Source of the DNA: Anaeromyxobacter paludicola
Lineage (GTDB): Bacteria; Myxococcota; Myxococcia; Myxococcales; Anaeromyxobacteraceae
Direction of reading: 5' to 3'
Length of the DNA: 64,000 bases
NCBI RefSeq assembly: GCF_023169965.1
Contig: NZ_AP025592.1
Coordinates: forward strand, 3,038,001-3,102,000
Shown piece after piece: positions 3,973-13,033 of the stretch (positions are counted from its first letter, which is position 1; every line of letters starts with the position of its first letter). The notes below the pieces were generated by a model. It was not told where the DNA came from, ran no database searches, and saw only the letters and a list, made by a program, of their open reading frames with translations. The position numbers and the translations under genes were made by a program.

Positions 3973-4656
3973 CTAGCTCCTCAGGAACTCGCGCGCCACC
4001 TCGTCCCAGCGCTCCGGGTCGAGCTCGCGGGCCATCCCCGCGATGGGCGCGCCGCCGTCGGCCAGCGCCTGCCCGAGCTCGGGCTCGATGCGGGCGGAGA
4101 GCGCCTCGCCGGCCTGGGCGAGCAGCCGCCGCGCCGCGCCGCCGCCGAAGAGCTGCTTCGCGTTGGCGCCGAAGCGGGCCGGCCGCACGCGGTAGAGCCA
4201 CCCCTCGCCGTACGGATCGGCGAGCCGCGCCGGATCCTCGAGGACCGCCCGGTTCACCTCCACCACCTCGCCGTCCACCGGCGAGAGCAGGTCCACCGAC
4301 CGGCCGCCGTCGCCGAGGGCCACCGCCGCGTCCCCCTGCGCGACGCGCGTCCCGGGCGCCGGCAGCTCGACCCTGGCCGCGCCGACCAGCTTGTGGGCGA
4401 AGTCGTCGAGCCCCACGGTGACGGTCCCGTCGCCGGCGAGCCGGGCCCAGGCGTGGCCCGGGTGGAGCAGCAGCCCCTCCGGCAGCGTGAACCAGCTGGC
4501 GATGGCCGGCTTCCAGTCGAGGCGGCGGACCACCTCCGGCGCGCCGGCGCCGCCCTGCACGTAGCGCCAGAAGAGGACGAAGCCGGCGAGGTACGCGACC
4601 GCGGTGCCGTACTCGAGCAGCTTGGCTGGATAGACCGCCAGGAATTCGTGCGTCAT
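3973..4656 (-). CDS. Membrane-anchored H-protein-like protein lacking the lipoyl lysine
   Basis: The 227-residue product has one N-terminal membrane segment (about residues 15-32). It is followed by a domain resembling glycine cleavage H protein: LHPGHAWARL, VGLDDFAHKLVG, SPVDGEVVEVN and DPYGEGWLYRV. In H protein the lipoylated Lys lies eight residues before the Pro of the (S/A)P-x-x-GE turn. Here that position is Gly118 (GDGGRSVDLLSP, 115-126), so lipoylation looks impossible. A strong AAGGAGG site precedes the ATG. It lies 29 bp downstream of a 24-residue membrane peptide gene on the same strand and probably shares its sigma-54-like promoter. The function is unknown; a structural role in a membrane complex is my inference. 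Confidence 0.75.
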   Translation of the reverse strand: MTHEFLAVYPAKLLEYGTAVAYLAGFVLFWRYVQGGAGAPEVVRRLDWKPAIASWFTLPEGLLLHPGHAWARLAGDGTVTVGLDDFAHKLVGAARVELPAPGTRVAQGDAAVALGDGGRSVDLLSPVDGEVVEVNRAVLEDPARLADPYGEGWLYRVRPARFGANAKQLFGGGAARRLLAQAGEALSARIEPELGQALADGGAPIAGMARELDPERWDEVAREFLRS

Positions 4657-4815: not shown

Positions 4816-4831
4816 AGCAAGGGCCGAGCCA
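4816..4831 (-). promoter_or_regulatory. Candidate sigma-54 (RpoN) promoter
   Basis: On the minus strand the sequence reads TGGCTCGGCCCTTGCT, matching TGGCAC-N5-TTGCT except for one base in the -24 box. The expected start of transcription is about 45 nt before the ATG of the 24-residue peptide. Further upstream lie a direct repeat CCGTTGA (4905-4911 and 4920-4926) and inverted arms AATTCC/GGAATT (4982-4987, 5011-5016), possible activator sites. Confidence 0.55.
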
Positions 4832-5056
4832 GCTCGCCAGCGCCTGGTCGCCGCGCGCCGTTTCGCATGAAAGACCGGCGGCTTTCGCGGATCGCGCTCC
4901 GGCGCCGTTGAATTGTTCACCGTTGAGCGGCTCACCGCGCGCAGAGGCCGTCTGGGACCGGCTCCTCGCGCATTGATGAGCAATTCCGCCGCGGGGCGTG
5001 GATCTGATCAGGAATTCACCGCACCGTCGGGAAACTCGACAGTCCGAGCCCTCGGC
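4832..5056. other. Non-coding upstream region with possible activator sites
   Basis: No gene is seen between the sigma-54-like promoter and the stop of the catalase-fold gene. The stretch is less GC-rich than its surroundings. It holds a 7-bp direct repeat CCGTTGA with 15-bp period (4905-4926) and an AATTCC-N23-GGAATT inverted repeat (4982-5016). These lie where enhancer-binding proteins for sigma-54 promoters usually bind, about 75-185 bp upstream of the -24 box. Confidence 0.4.
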
Positions 5057-5793: not shown

Positions 5794-6825
5794 TCAGGCG
5801 CGCGGGAGCGGCAGGCTGAAGGAGAACGTGCTCCCCTCCCCCGGCCGGCTCTCGACCCACATGCGGCCGCCGTGGGCGTCCACGATCCCCTTGGCGATGG
5901 CCAGCCCGAGCCCGGTGCCACGGTAGCGGGCCGACTTGGCCCGCCAGTAGCGGTCGAAGATGTGGGGCAGGTCCTCCTCGCGGATCCCCGGGCCGCTGTC
6001 GCGCACCTCGAAGATCACCACCTCGGCCTCGGCCCGCGCGCGCAGCGCGACGAAGCCGGCGCCGGTCGCCTGCACCGCGTTCATGGCCAGGTTCCCGAGC
6101 GCCTGCACGACCCGGTCGCGGTCGCAGGGGAGCTCCACCGGCTCGGGGCCGGCGTCCCAGGAGACCTCGAGCCCCTTCTTCTCGGCCGCCGCGCGCACCG
6201 CCTCGGCCGCCTCGCGCACCAGCGCCTCGGCGGGCCAGGGCGCCGGGCGGACCGAGAAGCGCCCCGACTCGATGCTCGACAGGTCGAGCAGGTCGTTGAT
6301 GAGCCGGTCGGCGCGCTGGGCGTTCCGCTCGATCATCGCGGCGTGCCGGCGCACCTTCTCGCCCGGCTCCCCGGGCGGCGCGGCCGCGGCGGCGTTGCGG
6401 GCGGCGAGGAGGATGGTGGCGATGGGGTTGCGCAGGTCGTGCGACACCACCGCCATCACCTCGTCGCGCTGGCGGCGGGCCCGCTGCTCCTCGCGGTAGA
6501 GGGCGTCGTGCTCGCTGGCGAGCCGCTCGGCCCGCAGCCGCGCCTCGCGCGCCGCGCCGCTCATCACCGCCACGCCGATCGCCACCGCGACGTAGATGGC
6601 GAGCGTGTGCAGCTCGTTGCGGTTGGCGATGCGGAGCGCGCCCGGCGCGCCGAGCAGGAGGTAGTCGGTGGTCCCGGCGGTGAGGGCGGTGGCGAGGAGC
6701 CCCGGGCCGCGACCGCCGAGCAGGCCCGAGCCGGCCACCGCCGCGAGGAGGAGGAAGTAGCGCGTGCCCTCGAACACGCCCGCGAAGAGGAGCGTGAGCG
6801 CCAGCGCCGCGAGCGAGAGCGCCAC
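5794..6825 (-). CDS. Membrane-bound sensor histidine kinase with DUF4118-like N-terminus
   Basis: The 343-residue product has about three or four N-terminal membrane segments resembling the KdpD-type DUF4118 region (RGPGLLATALTAGTTDYLLL). A dimerisation/H-box VVSHDLRNP, N-box GNLAMNAVQA, G1 DSGPGI, F-box DRYWR and G2 GTGLGLAI complete a full kinase core. There is no receiver domain and no adjacent regulator. The GTG at 6825 is the first ordinary start. The frame is open further up to the argB stop and reads RPAAYGTAV, which looks homologous, so translation may begin earlier at a rare codon such as CTG 6894. It follows argB closely. Confidence 0.85.
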   Translation of the reverse strand: MALSLAALALTLLFAGVFEGTRYFLLLAAVAGSGLLGGRGPGLLATALTAGTTDYLLLGAPGALRIANRNELHTLAIYVAVAIGVAVMSGAAREARLRAERLASEHDALYREEQRARRQRDEVMAVVSHDLRNPIATILLAARNAAAAAPPGEPGEKVRRHAAMIERNAQRADRLINDLLDLSSIESGRFSVRPAPWPAEALVREAAEAVRAAAEKKGLEVSWDAGPEPVELPCDRDRVVQALGNLAMNAVQATGAGFVALRARAEAEVVIFEVRDSGPGIREEDLPHIFDRYWRAKSARYRGTGLGLAIAKGIVDAHGGRMWVESRPGEGSTFSFSLPLPRA

Positions 6826-6895
6826 CGCCGTTCCGTAGGCGGCGGGGCGGTTCTCGATCGGGCCGACCGGGACCGGCGAGAGTTGCGGGCTCAGC

Positions 6896-7711
6896 TCACG
6901 CCTCCAGCACCGTGCCCACGCTGCCGGGCTCGAGCACCGCCCGCAGGAGCTCTCCCGGCGAGAGCTTGCCGACGATGACGATCGACCGGGCGCCGCGCGC
7001 CAGCACCTCGAAGGACTCCTCGAGCTTCGGGATCATGCCGCCGGAGATGCTGCCGTCGGCGACGCCGCGCGCGAAGTCGGCCCGCGTCATCCGCGGCACC
7101 CGGCTCGACGGGTCCTTCACGTCGCGCAGCACCCCCGGCGTGGAGGTCACGAGCACGAGGGCGTCGGCGCGCAGCGCCGCGGCGAGCTGGCTCGCCACGG
7201 TGTCGCCGTTGATGTTGAGCGGCTGCCCGGCGGCGTCGCAGCCGAGGCAGGCGAGCACCGGCACGTAGCCGCGCTCCTGCAGGTCGCCGAGGAGGGGCAG
7301 GTTGAAGCCGGTGACGTCGCCCACGAGCCCGAGGTCCACCGGGTCGGGGCCGGCGCCGGTCATGACCTGCGGCGGCCGCCGCGCCGCCTGGAGCACGTGG
7401 CCGGAGGCGCCGTGCAGCCCCACCCCGACCACGCCGTGGGCGAGGAGCTTCGCGCACAGGTCCACGTTCACCTTGCCGGCGACCACGTACTTCATGACCT
7501 CGAGCGTGGCCGGATCGGTGTAGCGGCGCCCCGCCACCATGCGGGTCTCGAGCCCGAGCGTCTTCTGGAGGGCGGAGGCCTGCGGCCCGCCCCCGTGCAC
7601 GACGGCGACCCGGTGGAAGCCCTCCACCAGCGCGCGCACGTCCTCGGCGATGGCGTCGGCCTCCGGGCTCGACACCACCTCTCCACCGACCTTGACGACG
7701 ACGTTCTTCAT
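6896..7711 (-). CDS. argB: Acetylglutamate kinase
   Basis: The 271-residue product is a complete amino acid kinase family enzyme: KNVVVKVGGEVV at the start, VVHGGGPQ, the arginine pathway block NINGDTVAS and GGMIPKLEES near the C-terminus. It phosphorylates N-acetylglutamate, the second step of arginine synthesis. Its ATG overlaps the argC stop as ATGA, so translation is coupled to the next enzyme of the pathway. An arginine-sensing N-terminal helix is not evident, which suggests the arginine-insensitive form, though that is inference. Confidence 0.95.
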   Translation of the reverse strand: MKNVVVKVGGEVVSSPEADAIAEDVRALVEGFHRVAVVHGGGPQASALQKTLGLETRMVAGRRYTDPATLEVMKYVVAGKVNVDLCAKLLAHGVVGVGLHGASGHVLQAARRPPQVMTGAGPDPVDLGLVGDVTGFNLPLLGDLQERGYVPVLACLGCDAAGQPLNINGDTVASQLAAALRADALVLVTSTPGVLRDVKDPSSRVPRMTRADFARGVADGSISGGMIPKLEESFEVLARGARSIVIVGKLSPGELLRAVLEPGSVGTVLEA

Positions 7712-8766
7712 GGGGGCCACGGTCCTCGGTCCTCGAGCGAGAGCGTCTCGTCGAGGCCCAGCACGAGGTTCATGTTCTCGATCGCCTGCCCCGCCCCGCC
7801 CTTCACCAGGTTGTCGAGGGCGCAGAACAGGGTGGCGGTGCGCCGGCCGCCGAGCGCCGGGCCGGCGGCGAGGCCGACCTCGGCGTAGTTGGAGCCCGAG
7901 ACCGCCGCCACCTCCGGCAGCCGCCTCGCCGGGACGCGCACGAACGGCTCCCCGGCGTAGGTCTCCTGGTAGAGCCGCCGCAGCCGCTCCTCGGTCCAGG
8001 CCTCCGGCACCTCGACGAAGCAGGTGGAGAGGATGCCGCGCCCGAGCGGCGCGGAGACCGGCACGAAGCGCAGCGCCAGGTCGCGCGCGCCGGCCTGGAG
8101 GAGCGCCTCGGCGATCTCGGGCACGTGCTGGTGCTCGAGCGGCTTGTAGGTCTTGAGGTTCGCGGCGCGGACCGGGTGGTGGGTGCCGGCGGAGGGCGCG
8201 ATGCCGGAGCCGGAGCTGCCGGTGATGCCCTGCACGTGGACCACGCCCTCGAGGAGGCCGGCCCGCGCGAGCGGCAGGAGCGCGAGCTCGATCGAGGTGG
8301 CGAAGCAGCCGGGGCTGGCGACGAGCCGCGCCCCGCGCAGCCGCTCGCGGTTGAGCTCGGGGAGGCCGTAGACGAACCGCTCGAGGAGCTCGGGGTGCGG
8401 GTGGGCCTGGCCGTAGGCGCGGGCGTAGGCGGCGGCGTCCTTGAGCCGGAAGTCGCCGCTCATGTCCACCACCCGGACCCCGGCGGCGACGAGCTCGGGC
8501 ATGAGCGTGGCGGAGACCTTGTGCGGCAGGCCGAGCAGCACCACGTCGGCGCCGGCGGCGGCCTCGCGCGGCGGCAGGTTCTCGTAGACGCCCGGCACGC
8601 CCTCGAGCGAGGGGTGGGCCGCGGCGAGCGGCTCGCCCACGTGATCGACCGCCGCCACCCGCAGGAGCGCCACCTCGGGGTGGACGAGCAGCCGGCGGAT
8701 CATCTCCGCGCCACCGTAGCCGGTGCCGCCGATCACCGCCGCCTTGTAGGGTCTCGCCTTCGCCAT
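7708..8766 (-). CDS. argC: N-acetyl-gamma-glutamyl-phosphate reductase
   Basis: The 352-residue product has an N-terminal Rossmann motif GGTGYGGAE, the catalytic cysteine in SPGCFATS, and HHPVRAANLKTYKPLEHQHVPEI typical of ArgC. It reduces the acyl phosphate made by ArgB using NADPH. GCFAT rather than GCYPT around the cysteine is like the form found in Bacteroidetes and other lineages. A -10 TACACT lies at 8793-8788, divergent from the M20 peptidase promoter. The pair argC-argB is overlapped by 4 nt. Confidence 0.95.
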   Translation of the reverse strand: MAKARPYKAAVIGGTGYGGAEMIRRLLVHPEVALLRVAAVDHVGEPLAAAHPSLEGVPGVYENLPPREAAAGADVVLLGLPHKVSATLMPELVAAGVRVVDMSGDFRLKDAAAYARAYGQAHPHPELLERFVYGLPELNRERLRGARLVASPGCFATSIELALLPLARAGLLEGVVHVQGITGSSGSGIAPSAGTHHPVRAANLKTYKPLEHQHVPEIAEALLQAGARDLALRFVPVSAPLGRGILSTCFVEVPEAWTEERLRRLYQETYAGEPFVRVPARRLPEVAAVSGSNYAEVGLAAGPALGGRRTATLFCALDNLVKGGAGQAIENMNLVLGLDETLSLEDRGPWPP

Positions 8767-8787
8767 GGACGCCTCGGTCGGGCGGGC

Positions 8788-8830: not shown

Positions 8831-9991
8831 GTGAGCCCCGGCCCCGAACCCCGCCTCGACCTCGCCCTGCGCTGGCTCGCGGGGCAGCTCCCCGCGATGA
8901 CCGCGCTCCTCGAGCGGCTGGTCCTCCAGAACTCCCACACCGGCAACCCGGCCGGCGTCGCCGCCGTGGTGGAGGTCGTCGAGGCGCGGCTCCGCGCCCT
9001 CGGCCTCGCCACCGAGCGGCTCGCGAGCGCGCGCTTCGGGCCGCACCTCGCCTTCTCCGGTCCGGCCCCGGGCGCGCCGGCGTTCCTCGTCGGCCACGCC
9101 GACACCGTCTTCCCGCCGGGCTCGTTCGAGGGCTTCCGGGTCGAGGGCGATCTGGCGCGGGGGCCGGGCACCTTCGACATGAAGGGCGGGCTGGTGGTCG
9201 GGCTCTTCGCGCTCGAGGCGCTGCGCGAGGCGGGGCTCCTCGAGCGCGTGCCGGTCCGCGGCATGTTCGTCGCGGACGAGGAGGTGGGCTCGCCCGAGTC
9301 GTCGCCGCTCCTCGCCGCGCGGGCGCGGGGCGCCGCCTGCGCGCTCGGCCTCGAGTCGGGCCGCCAGGGCGACCTGCTCGTCACCCGGCGCAAGGGGGTC
9401 GGCGCCGTGCAGGTGGAGGCGCGCGGAGTCGCCGCGCACGCCGGCAACGAGCACGAGCGCGGCCGGAACGCCGTCTGGTCCCTCGCGCGCTTCGTCGACG
9501 CGGCCCAGGGGCTCACCGACTACGGGAGCGGCGTCACCGTGAACGTCGGCCGCTTCGAGGGCGGGACGAGCAAGAACACCGTGCCCGACCGCGCCCTGGC
9601 GCAGGTGGACCTCCGCTACCTCACCGCCGGGGACGGCGACGCCCTCCTGGCGCGGCTCGCCGCGCTCGCCGCCGAGGTGGCGGTCCCCGGCACGTCGATC
9701 GCGGTGAGCCGCGGCGCGGCCCGGCCGCCGCTCGAGCGGACCGCGGCCTCGGCGGCGCTCGCGGCCGCGTACGGCGCCTGCCAGGTCGCGGCGGGGCTCG
9801 GCAGCGGCGAGGCGCCCCTGGTGGGCGGCGGCTCCGACGCCAACACCACCGGGGCGGCCGGCGTCCCGTCGATCGACGGGCTCGGGCCCCGCGGGGCGGC
9901 CTTCCACACCGCCGACGAGCGGATCGAGCTGTCGTCCCTGGTGCCCAAGGCCGCGGCGCTGGTCCGCTTCCTCGCGCGCTCCGCCGCCTGA
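8831..9991 (+). CDS. M20 family metallopeptidase, carboxypeptidase G2-like
   Basis: The 386-residue cytoplasmic enzyme has the zinc-site motifs of the family: GHADTVFPPGS, GTFDMKGG, VADEEVGS and a late FHTADER, with an inserted dimerisation domain holding AAHAGNEHERGRNA. CPG2-type enzymes remove C-terminal glutamate or cleave N-acylated amino acids. Being divergent from argC-argB, it might serve as an acetylornithine or related deacetylase, but nothing in the sequence proves that. The GTG start is forced by the short gap; the -10 box is 6 nt upstream and there is no Shine-Dalgarno. Confidence 0.85.
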   Translation: MSPGPEPRLDLALRWLAGQLPAMTALLERLVLQNSHTGNPAGVAAVVEVVEARLRALGLATERLASARFGPHLAFSGPAPGAPAFLVGHADTVFPPGSFEGFRVEGDLARGPGTFDMKGGLVVGLFALEALREAGLLERVPVRGMFVADEEVGSPESSPLLAARARGAACALGLESGRQGDLLVTRRKGVGAVQVEARGVAAHAGNEHERGRNAVWSLARFVDAAQGLTDYGSGVTVNVGRFEGGTSKNTVPDRALAQVDLRYLTAGDGDALLARLAALAAEVAVPGTSIAVSRGAARPPLERTAASAALAAAYGACQVAAGLGSGEAPLVGGGSDANTTGAAGVPSIDGLGPRGAAFHTADERIELSSLVPKAAALVRFLARSAA

Positions 9992-11383: not shown

Positions 11384-13033
11384 TCAGGGCGCCCGGGCGG
11401 CGGCGGCGGAGATCGCGTCGAGGAGCGCCGCCGCCGAGAAGGGCTTCTCGAGGAAGGGCACGCGCCCCTCGCGCAGGAACGCCTGCCCGCGCTCGGAGAA
11501 GGCGCCGCCGGTCAGGACCACCATCCGCGCCGCCTGGTCCGGGAAGCGGGCCGCGAGCTTCTCGTGGAAGTCCACCCCGCCGAGATCCGGCATCATCAGG
11601 TCGCAGAGGATGGCGTCGAACCGCTCGCCGGCCTCGAGCCGCTCGAGCCCGGCGCGCGCCCGGGAGCAGGGGCGGACCTCGTGCGCCTGCGCCACCATCC
11701 GCTCCACCGCCTTGAGGCAGAGCGGATCGTCGTCGATGACGAGCACCCGGAGGCGGCGGGCCTCGGCGGCGCCCCCGGGCCCCGCGGCCAGCCCGCCCGG
11801 CGCCTCCCGCCGCGACGGCGGAAGCCGCAGGCGCATCCGGGTGCCGGCGCCGGGGGCGCTCTCGACCTCGAGGCTGCCGCCGAGCGCCGTCACGATGCCG
11901 TGGCAGATGGCGAGGCCGAGCCCGGTGCCGAGGCCGGCCGGCTTGGTGGTGAAGAAGGGGTCGAAGATCCGCGGCAGGTGCTCCGGCGCGATGCCGCAGC
12001 CGGTGTCGCGCACCTCCACCATGGCGTCGCCGCGCTCGGTCCAGGTGGAGATCCGGATCTCGTTCCGCTCGGCGGCGCCGTCCGGGATGGCCTGGGCGGC
12101 GTTGACGAGCAGGTTGATGAAGAGCTGGGTCAGGCGCCCGTCGTTGGCGCGCACCAGCGGGATCTCCTGGTACCGCTTCTCGAGCCGCGCCCGGTGCCGG
12201 ATGTCGTTGGCGGTCATCGAGGCGGCGATGTCGAGGAGGGGGCGCAGGTCCACCGGCTCGCACTCGTCCGCCTCCGCGCGGGAGAAGACCTTGAGGTCGC
12301 GCACGATCCGCTGCACGCGGTCGGCCCCGGCGCGCACGTCCCCGAGCGCCGCCTGGGCGTCGGCGAGGCACTCGTCCAGCCGCGGGCGGACCGCGCCGGC
12401 GACCGCCGCGCCGGCGATGGCGCGGATCTCCTCGAGCTTCGACTCCACGTACTCGAGGTTGCCGAGGACGTAGGAGAGCGGGTTGTTGACCTCGTGCGCC
12501 ACCCCCGCCGCCACGGTCCCGAGCGAGACCAGCCGGTCGGCGAGGGCGAGGCGCGCCTGCATCTGCTGCCGCTCGGTGACGTCGCGGGCCACGATCACCG
12601 CCACCGCGTGCCCCTCGAGCCGCACCAGGGTGACGCCGAGCTCGGCCGGGAAGCGGCTGCCGTCCGCCCGCGTGAGCGCGGCGGCGAGCGTCTCGCGGAC
12701 CTCGCCGGCGTCCTCGCGGGCGAGCAGCGCGCGCAGCCGCTCCCGGTGCGCCGGCGCGAGCCGCGCCTCGAGCGCCCCGCCGAGCAGCGCCTCGCGCGGG
12801 AGACCGAGCTGCTGGCAGGCGGAGCCGTTCACGTCGAGCAGGGCCCCGCCCGGCACCTCGGCGAGGAAGATGGCCTCCGTGCTGTGGTCGAGCAGCGCGC
12901 GGAACCGCTCCAGCTCCGAGAGGCGCTGCTGCAGCTCCGGGTAGTAGCTCTTCCGGTGCGAGCCCTCGGCGAGCCCCGCCAGCCGCTCGCGGAAGGCCTC
13001 CCGGGTGGCCGGATCGTCAAAGCGCGGCTTCAT
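11384..13033 (-). CDS. Cytoplasmic PAS hybrid histidine kinase with C-terminal receiver
   Basis: The 549-residue product has no membrane segment. Order: N-terminal helix, PAS domain (about 45-160, ending VIVARDVTERQQMQ), H-box GVAHEVNNPLSYVLGNLEY (about 180), N-box FINLLVNAAQAI, G1 DTGCGI and G2 GTGLGLAI. After a linker comes a receiver domain (about 430-545) with VIDDDP, phospho-acceptor Asp in ILCDLMMPD and Lys in FLEKPFS. It would sense a cytoplasmic or redox signal. It overlaps the end of the iron alcohol dehydrogenase gene by 17 bp, so it is probably cotranscribed with it. Confidence 0.9.
   Translation of the reverse strand: MKPRFDDPATREAFRERLAGLAEGSHRKSYYPELQQRLSELERFRALLDHSTEAIFLAEVPGGALLDVNGSACQQLGLPREALLGGALEARLAPAHRERLRALLAREDAGEVRETLAAALTRADGSRFPAELGVTLVRLEGHAVAVIVARDVTERQQMQARLALADRLVSLGTVAAGVAHEVNNPLSYVLGNLEYVESKLEEIRAIAGAAVAGAVRPRLDECLADAQAALGDVRAGADRVQRIVRDLKVFSRAEADECEPVDLRPLLDIAASMTANDIRHRARLEKRYQEIPLVRANDGRLTQLFINLLVNAAQAIPDGAAERNEIRISTWTERGDAMVEVRDTGCGIAPEHLPRIFDPFFTTKPAGLGTGLGLAICHGIVTALGGSLEVESAPGAGTRMRLRLPPSRREAPGGLAAGPGGAAEARRLRVLVIDDDPLCLKAVERMVAQAHEVRPCSRARAGLERLEAGERFDAILCDLMMPDLGGVDFHEKLAARFPDQAARMVVLTGGAFSERGQAFLREGRVPFLEKPFSAAALLDAISAAAARAP

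Follow-up and report, generated by a model that had tools for sequence, protein, structure and literature searches.

A lysine-less relative of the glycine cleavage H-protein in Anaeromyxobacter paludicola, a candidate accessory subunit of Hmc/NrfD-type membrane complexes

Background

The H-protein of the glycine cleavage system (GcvH) carries its lipoyl group on a lysine, and lipoyl ligases require an exact position of this residue in a hairpin. Relatives with the same fold also act outside glycine cleavage. GcvH-L (PDB 5a35) is a soluble, lipoylated and ADP-ribosylated protein from SirTM/macrodomain operons. LbpA, a paralogue of GcvH, serves an electron-transfer system, that of sHdr sulfur oxidation; the lysine is present in all 95 aligned LbpA proteins, and most of them have two conserved cysteines (PMC6067878).

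Among membrane complexes, the one closest to the genes described below is Hmc (HmcABCDEF), with the 16-haem cytochrome HmcA, the Fe-S protein HmcB, the NrfD-type protein HmcC, the NarI-like HmcE and the HdrD-like HmcF. A review of NrfD makes no mention of a lipoyl or H-protein subunit (PMC8076601). Modules of Fe-S/NrfD proteins and multihaem cytochromes from MBNT15 and Melioribacter are proposed as quinol-oxidising complexes for metal reduction, and the passages on them mention neither an H-like subunit nor a micropeptide (PMC9386147).

In this work we focused on a 64,000-nucleotide stretch of the Anaeromyxobacter paludicola genome, hereafter the window, in which an initial annotation had noted a membrane-anchored H-protein-like domain without the lipoyl lysine. 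We compared this gene and its surroundings with homologous loci (L numbers, from genomes with G numbers) in Myxococcota, Acidobacteriota and Desulfobacterota.

Methods

Proteins were scored against Pfam and NCBIfam profiles, with a gathering cut-off of 22.2 bits for Pfam GCV_H. The structure of the window protein was predicted by AlphaFold2 from a 40-row alignment, and the model was compared with known structures using Foldseek and VIA-align. The search for a regulator site by exact inverted repeats gave lineage-specific hits only, and a weight matrix was then used.

Results

Four features were located in this part of the window:
3973..4656, minus strand: gene of the H-protein-like protein, here named A, an ORF of 227 amino acids
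4686..4760, minus strand: micropeptide u, MILVVAFGICGFAVIGLSTLVAHH, 24 amino acids with one hydrophobic segment and an AAGGAG ribosome site
4816..4831, minus strand: sigma54 (-24/-12) promoter, TGGCTCGGCCCTTGCT, score 16.0
4907..4921, minus strand: palindrome-like element, GGTGAACAATTCAAC, a candidate site with a score of 16.2 (p 0.001-0.009)

The last three had been overlooked by the initial annotation, as had the DGG-bearing C-terminal extension of protein A. Gene A starts with ATG behind a GAAGGAGG ribosome site, and its product consists of a helix (residues 8-33), a linker, the H-protein fold (about residues 57-182) and the C-terminal extension, in which residues 194-202 read LG-x4-DGG. 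The H-protein landmarks originally quoted are all present in the ORF. Residues 68-175 match Pfam GCV_H (PF01597) with an E value of 2e-19 and 70.1 bits, above the gathering cut-off, and the score against the NCBIfam gcvH equivalog TIGR00527 is 62.3 bits, below the cut-off of 115.85 bits. The strong matches in a PDB sequence search were all H-proteins. The AlphaFold2 model (pLDDT 87.8) contains the helix 8-33, a low-confidence linker, the full H-protein fold, a helix at 172-194, a weaker loop and a helix at 214-224. Residues 56-188 of the model superpose on H-proteins, with a Z score of 18.8 and an rmsd of 1.5 Å over 129 residues for the pea H-protein 1htp.

The lipoyl-lysine site corresponds in the model to the turn between strands 110-116 and 119-125, where protein A has Gly118-Arg119 and H-proteins have Lys followed by Ala, Ser or Thr. 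A gapless alignment with the Thermus thermophilus H-protein pairs the lipoyl lysine with Gly118, the replacement named in the initial annotation. Another lysine filling the site was sought and is ruled out, as the only lysines of the protein are at positions 12, 49, 89 and 167; the hairpin lies in the lysine-free interval from 89 to 167. There are no cysteines. Protein A has kept the fold and lost the reactive residue.

Helix 8-33 had been described as a membrane helix. It was modelled as a helix, with a Kyte-Doolittle hydropathy of 1.31 in a 19-residue segment, for a family median of 1.54; the usual threshold of 1.6 is reached by 18 of 42 family copies, and the window copy lies below it. Because of this weak hydrophobicity, a membrane helix is likely, not proven, in the window copy.

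Survey of close homologues showed that the loss of the lipoyl lysine is old and family-wide. In an alignment named A1 the lipoyl column holds K in 21/21 GcvH vs 1/19 family members. All fetched loci were then sorted by profile fit into 130 unique sequences of the H-like family and 87 of GcvH, and Lys occupies the column in 87/87 GcvH-type proteins vs 11/130 family members, a sorting that partly depends on the lysine since its column is one of many in the profile. The C-terminal extension, which GcvH lacks, separates the two groups by itself, with its D in 119/130 and its G in 126/130 members of the H-like family. The lipoyl column of this family contains G (51), S (17), D (15), A (11), K (11) and others. 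With 119/130 members devoid of Lys at the site, a lone oddity of the window is ruled out. Among 247 genomes sampled from the phylum to which G044 belongs (L012, a Desulfobacca MAG), 101 had a hit at 1e-15, and true GcvH proteins are included in these hits; in the phylum of G041 (L006, Acidobacteriota), 26 of 149 genomes gave a match at 1e-20. Loss of the lysine through inability of the organism to lipoylate is unlikely, as a Lys-bearing GcvH is encoded in the genome. Besides the window gene, the GCV_H genes of this genome, four in all, comprise this true GcvH at 1341806, with ESTK at the site and a gcvT-like gene upstream, and two genes at 570 kb.

Gene A in the window is adjoined by an FKBP-type gene and one unrelated gene, with no gcv genes and none of the complex genes described below beside it. 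Neither a sigma70 promoter nor an intrinsic terminator was found at the window locus, and there was no Rfam match to a structured RNA. The protein is 62% identical to a copy at 570323 in the same genome (dN/dS 0.48 between the two genes), which is part of an operon (L085). This locus begins with a haem-binding histidine kinase bearing CxxCH, an archaemetzincin (M54), an NtrC-type sigma54 regulator, a small Cys-rich protein and a micropeptide. It continues with a Tat-type HmcB-like 4Fe-4S protein, an HmcC/NrfD-like protein, H-like A, a triheme cytochrome, a second H-like protein (B) and a cytochrome with 9 CxxCH motifs and a hydrophobic helix at its C-terminus. The lipoyl site is T in H-like A and G-K in H-like B. 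The Fe-S protein matches HmcB (NF045715) with an E value of 3e-98 and 328.6 bits, for an equivalog cut-off of 420, and the NrfD protein matches HmcC (NF045714) with an E value of 2e-133 and 445.6 bits, for a cut-off of 550.

The gene order is repeated in other Anaeromyxobacteraceae and in Acidobacteriota, where nrfD is directly followed by the A gene, and is looser in Desulfobacterota. These conserved neighbours of the homologues (HmcB-like and HmcC/NrfD-like proteins, multihaem cytochromes) support at the family level the initially proposed non-lipoyl role in a membrane complex; the window copy itself stands without these partners, and it is from gene order that we infer the complex role of the A family.

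Several further observations were made at these loci. The archaemetzincin is a steady operon member; in L085 (5557-6105) it scores just over the cut-off of NF033823, has an intact HEVGHAYGLLHC motif and lies between kinase and regulator. In L127 (genome G004) the operon is otherwise complete and A (9278-9430) is reduced to an ORF of 52 amino acids comprising the membrane helix only. In Desulfobacterota-type loci (L195, L197, L199-L201) soluble proteins join a Cys-rich segment to the same H-like domain, and HmcB/C-like genes are absent. The Cys-rich N-terminus of the fusions reads C-x-W-M-x-A-G-V-V...C...C..C, it is covered by no Pfam family in the fusions scanned, and the neighbouring genes encode sigma54 regulators, kinases or HdrA-like proteins. 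Near operons and cassettes there is also a recurrent small membrane protein, which has a hydrophobic hairpin and a GGYYW-like N-terminus:
L085, 18388-18813: GGYYW-like small membrane protein
L085, 18883-19314: GGYYW-like small membrane protein
L120, 8968-9441: GGYYW-like small membrane protein
L182, 1296-1607: GGYYW-like small membrane protein
L182, 9710-10027: GGYYW-like small membrane protein

The window micropeptide, apparently unannotated, lies directly upstream of gene A, with 29 nt between its end and A. A hydrophobic ORF of 22-25 amino acids was found upstream of every examined A copy that does not directly follow nrfD, namely those of the window, L118, L202, L203, L120 (twice), L121, L125, L130, L206 and L209; those of L118, L202 and L203 are near-duplicates of each other, as are the two of L120. 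In most examined operons of Anaeromyxobacteraceae and Acidobacteriota the micropeptide instead precedes the Fe-S gene (L085, L117, L124, L126, L127, L133, L006-L009 with 28 amino acids, L182, and a candidate in L186); it was not found in L128 or in most Desulfobacterota loci examined. The counterparts overall measure 22-29 amino acids. As a control, the upstream regions of 349 genes were scanned, which yielded 10 hydrophobic tiny ORFs with a ribosome-binding site, all of them from the micropeptide/H-like system, and 12 of 10,000 random 200-nt stretches contained such an ORF. Values of dN/dS are 0.14-0.47 in Acidobacteriota copies and about 0.7-1.5 in some stand-alone copies; these substitution patterns support translation of the micropeptide in Acidobacteriota.

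A tree of 42 A rows requires at least 4 changes between nrfD-linked and stand-alone positions, as do 200 bootstrap trees, so that stand-alone cassettes as a single clade are ruled out; in this tree three divergent fusions have long branches, and the placement of the window gene has no strong support. The stand-alone A copies are under purifying selection, with dN/dS of 0.13-0.29. The cassette is linked to the complex by L121, where the Fe-S, NrfD and triheme cytochrome genes are followed by the micropeptide and A. Two near-identical cassettes lie 3.6 kb apart in L120 (genome G022; 8045-8785 and 11680-12420), each with its own sigma54 site, and further copies are present in this genome. The window pair is most likely a satellite copy of two operon parts, the micropeptide and A.

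The sigma54 promoter is located 55 nt upstream of the window micropeptide, and its exact match was observed once in the 64-kb window for 0.05 expected. Sites scoring at least 11.8 occur upstream of 10/11 stand-alone cassettes and sigma54 sites also precede most of the operon Cys genes; random stretches score at least 12 in 0.5% and at least 11 in 1.1% of cases. The genome encodes rpoN. It contains 12 sites of the sigma54 pattern (6 for a control pattern), and the window site is the only one with a palindrome score above 9.0. The element GGTGAACAATTCAAC resembles the palindrome GTTGA-N5-TCAAC found upstream of the operon promoters and is a putative response-regulator site; the match is moderate in the window and weak in other stand-alone copies of Anaeromyxobacteraceae. 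We infer, with this support, that the window pair is co-regulated with the operon.

Among 622 ORFs of the fetched loci, 44 contain LG-x4-DGG-like motifs. These are 35 H-like proteins, 3 apparently chance matches and the following:
L183, 9960-10175: small single-helix protein
L184, 3966-4226: small single-helix protein
L185, 8599-8874: small single-helix protein
L187, 8991-9260: small single-helix protein
L189, 5893-6141: small single-helix protein
L189, end of 6819-8324: C-terminal tail of an NrfD protein
On one reading, the motif may be a docking motif common to unrelated subunits.

Discussion

Protein A shares with GcvH the fold over about 125 residues and most sequence landmarks, and differs from it by the missing lysine, the N-terminal helix, a 45-residue C-terminal extension bearing DGG and the absence of gcvT/P neighbours; it is not GcvH, as both the lysine and the equivalog score fail. 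Nor is it LbpA, since it has neither the site lysine nor any cysteine. GcvH-L gives a Z score of 11.7 with the model, and neither the window gene nor the L085 operon has recognisable sirtuin or macrodomain genes in its surroundings. For the operon, HmcB and HmcC are the closest NCBIfam relatives of the Fe-S and NrfD subunits, and the two systems also have in common a multihaem cytochrome and a small membrane protein. Unlike Hmc, however, the operon has H-like subunits and a peptide of 22-29 amino acids, its cytochrome has 9 CxxCH motifs vs the 16 haems of HmcA, and neither HmcE nor HmcF was recognised in it by eye. With core subunits below the HmcB and HmcC equivalog cut-offs and 9 haems, it is not a strict Hmc complex. 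The MBNT15 and Melioribacter modules resemble it in leading from quinol to a multihaem cytochrome. No description of H-like subunits with NrfD/Hmc genes was found in open-access full texts, and the system is best called one of the Hmc/NrfD kind with subunits lacking description in the open-access literature searched.

We consider it probable (roughly 0.6) that A, without a cofactor, serves as an accessory subunit in a quinone-cytochrome complex of the Hmc/NrfD type, the window pair being a co-regulated satellite copy. The data suggest an early recruitment of the H-protein fold, stripped of its cofactor, into an electron-transfer complex of the membrane. As an H-protein paralogue without cofactor, A would act as a structural or docking subunit instead of a lipoyl carrier, held in the inner membrane by its single N-terminal helix. 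Judging by a positive-inside tendency, the DGG-bearing tail and the H-fold would face the cytoplasm, the charge bias that sets this topology being present in only 27/42 A copies. The Tat-exported HmcB-like Fe-S protein and the HmcC-like quinone subunit would link menaquinone and multihaem cytochromes c by electron exchange, and the H-like subunits and the membrane peptide of 22-29 amino acids would finish the membrane part and present a cytoplasmic binding surface. Through its own sigma54 promoter, the window satellite would allow the same pair of haem-sensing kinase and NtrC-type regulator to raise or alter the supply of subunits. Several observations weigh against this reading: the window copy stands apart from any complex genes, its helix lies under the hydropathy threshold, the charge bias is limited to part of the copies, the palindrome match is moderate, the Fe-S and NrfD proteins of the operon score under the equivalog cut-offs, and the L127 operon retains only the membrane helix of A.

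The stand-alone pair might instead act outside the complex, as a membrane adaptor or sensor in a signalling branch made up of the haem kinase, the sigma54 regulator, the archaemetzincin and the Cys-rich proteins, with the DGG tail as a recognition or cleavage site of a cytoplasmic partner. L196 (Desulfobacterota) encodes a soluble fusion of a Cys-rich part and an H-like domain of this family near a kinase, a regulator and an archaemetzincin homologue, without HmcB/C-like genes, the fusions of L195 and L199-L201 lie near kinase or regulator and HdrA-like genes, and LG-x4-DGG is also carried by unrelated small membrane proteins and once by an NrfD tail. However, A directly follows nrfD in the operons of Anaeromyxobacteraceae and Acidobacteriota, and the L121 cassette comes after Fe-S, NrfD and c7 genes; we regard such an adaptor as rather unlikely. 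The retention of membrane anchor and micropeptide partner in the cassettes fits a stoichiometric membrane part better than an assembly or maturation factor that is not a permanent subunit; an H-like domain devoid of cofactor ligands, the lack of any Cys in A and of Lys at the site, and the occurrence of two paralogues, A and B, in each operon speak for such a factor, which we regard as improbable.

The window copy could also be a functionless duplicate in decay, with its partner genes absent nearby, its lysine lost, and a dN/dS of 0.48 to the operon paralogue that reflects faster divergence than in other pairs. Its frame is nevertheless intact, both genes have ribosome sites, the sigma54 site is intact, the micropeptide and the H-protein landmarks are retained, and like cassettes in other lineages are kept with dN/dS of 0.13-0.29, so that decay appears very improbable. 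That a group is still covalently bound to A, at another position or through other chemistry, is scarcely credible: R or K directly follows the old site in 86/130 members and paralogue B has Gly-Lys, but residue 119 of the window protein is Arg in a stretch free of lysine, and lipoyl ligases need the exact hairpin position.

Beyond the preferred reading of A as an accessory subunit, we tentatively envisage a broader picture, which we rate as less likely than not. Lipoate-free H-folds may serve as membrane-anchored docking subunits, along with the conserved micropeptide of 22-29 amino acids, in widespread undescribed respiratory complexes. The micropeptide and H-like pair may spread as a satellite cassette driven by sigma54 and, under the control of a haem-sensing two-component system, retune the complex, and the LG-x4-DGG tail on otherwise unrelated subunits may recruit a common cytoplasmic partner, possibly the archaemetzincin.

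A GCV_H domain match without the lysine should not be taken as glycine cleavage, and genes of the H-like family risk the label 'glycine cleavage system protein H'. The haem kinase and the sigma54 regulator offer a testable regulon in Anaeromyxobacter. If our reading is true, NrfD-type respiratory complexes would gain a micropeptide that is apparently unannotated as well as H-like subunits, and this would be a clear example of a cofactor-carrier fold that lost its cofactor early and still has a function across Myxococcota, Acidobacteriota and Desulfobacterota.
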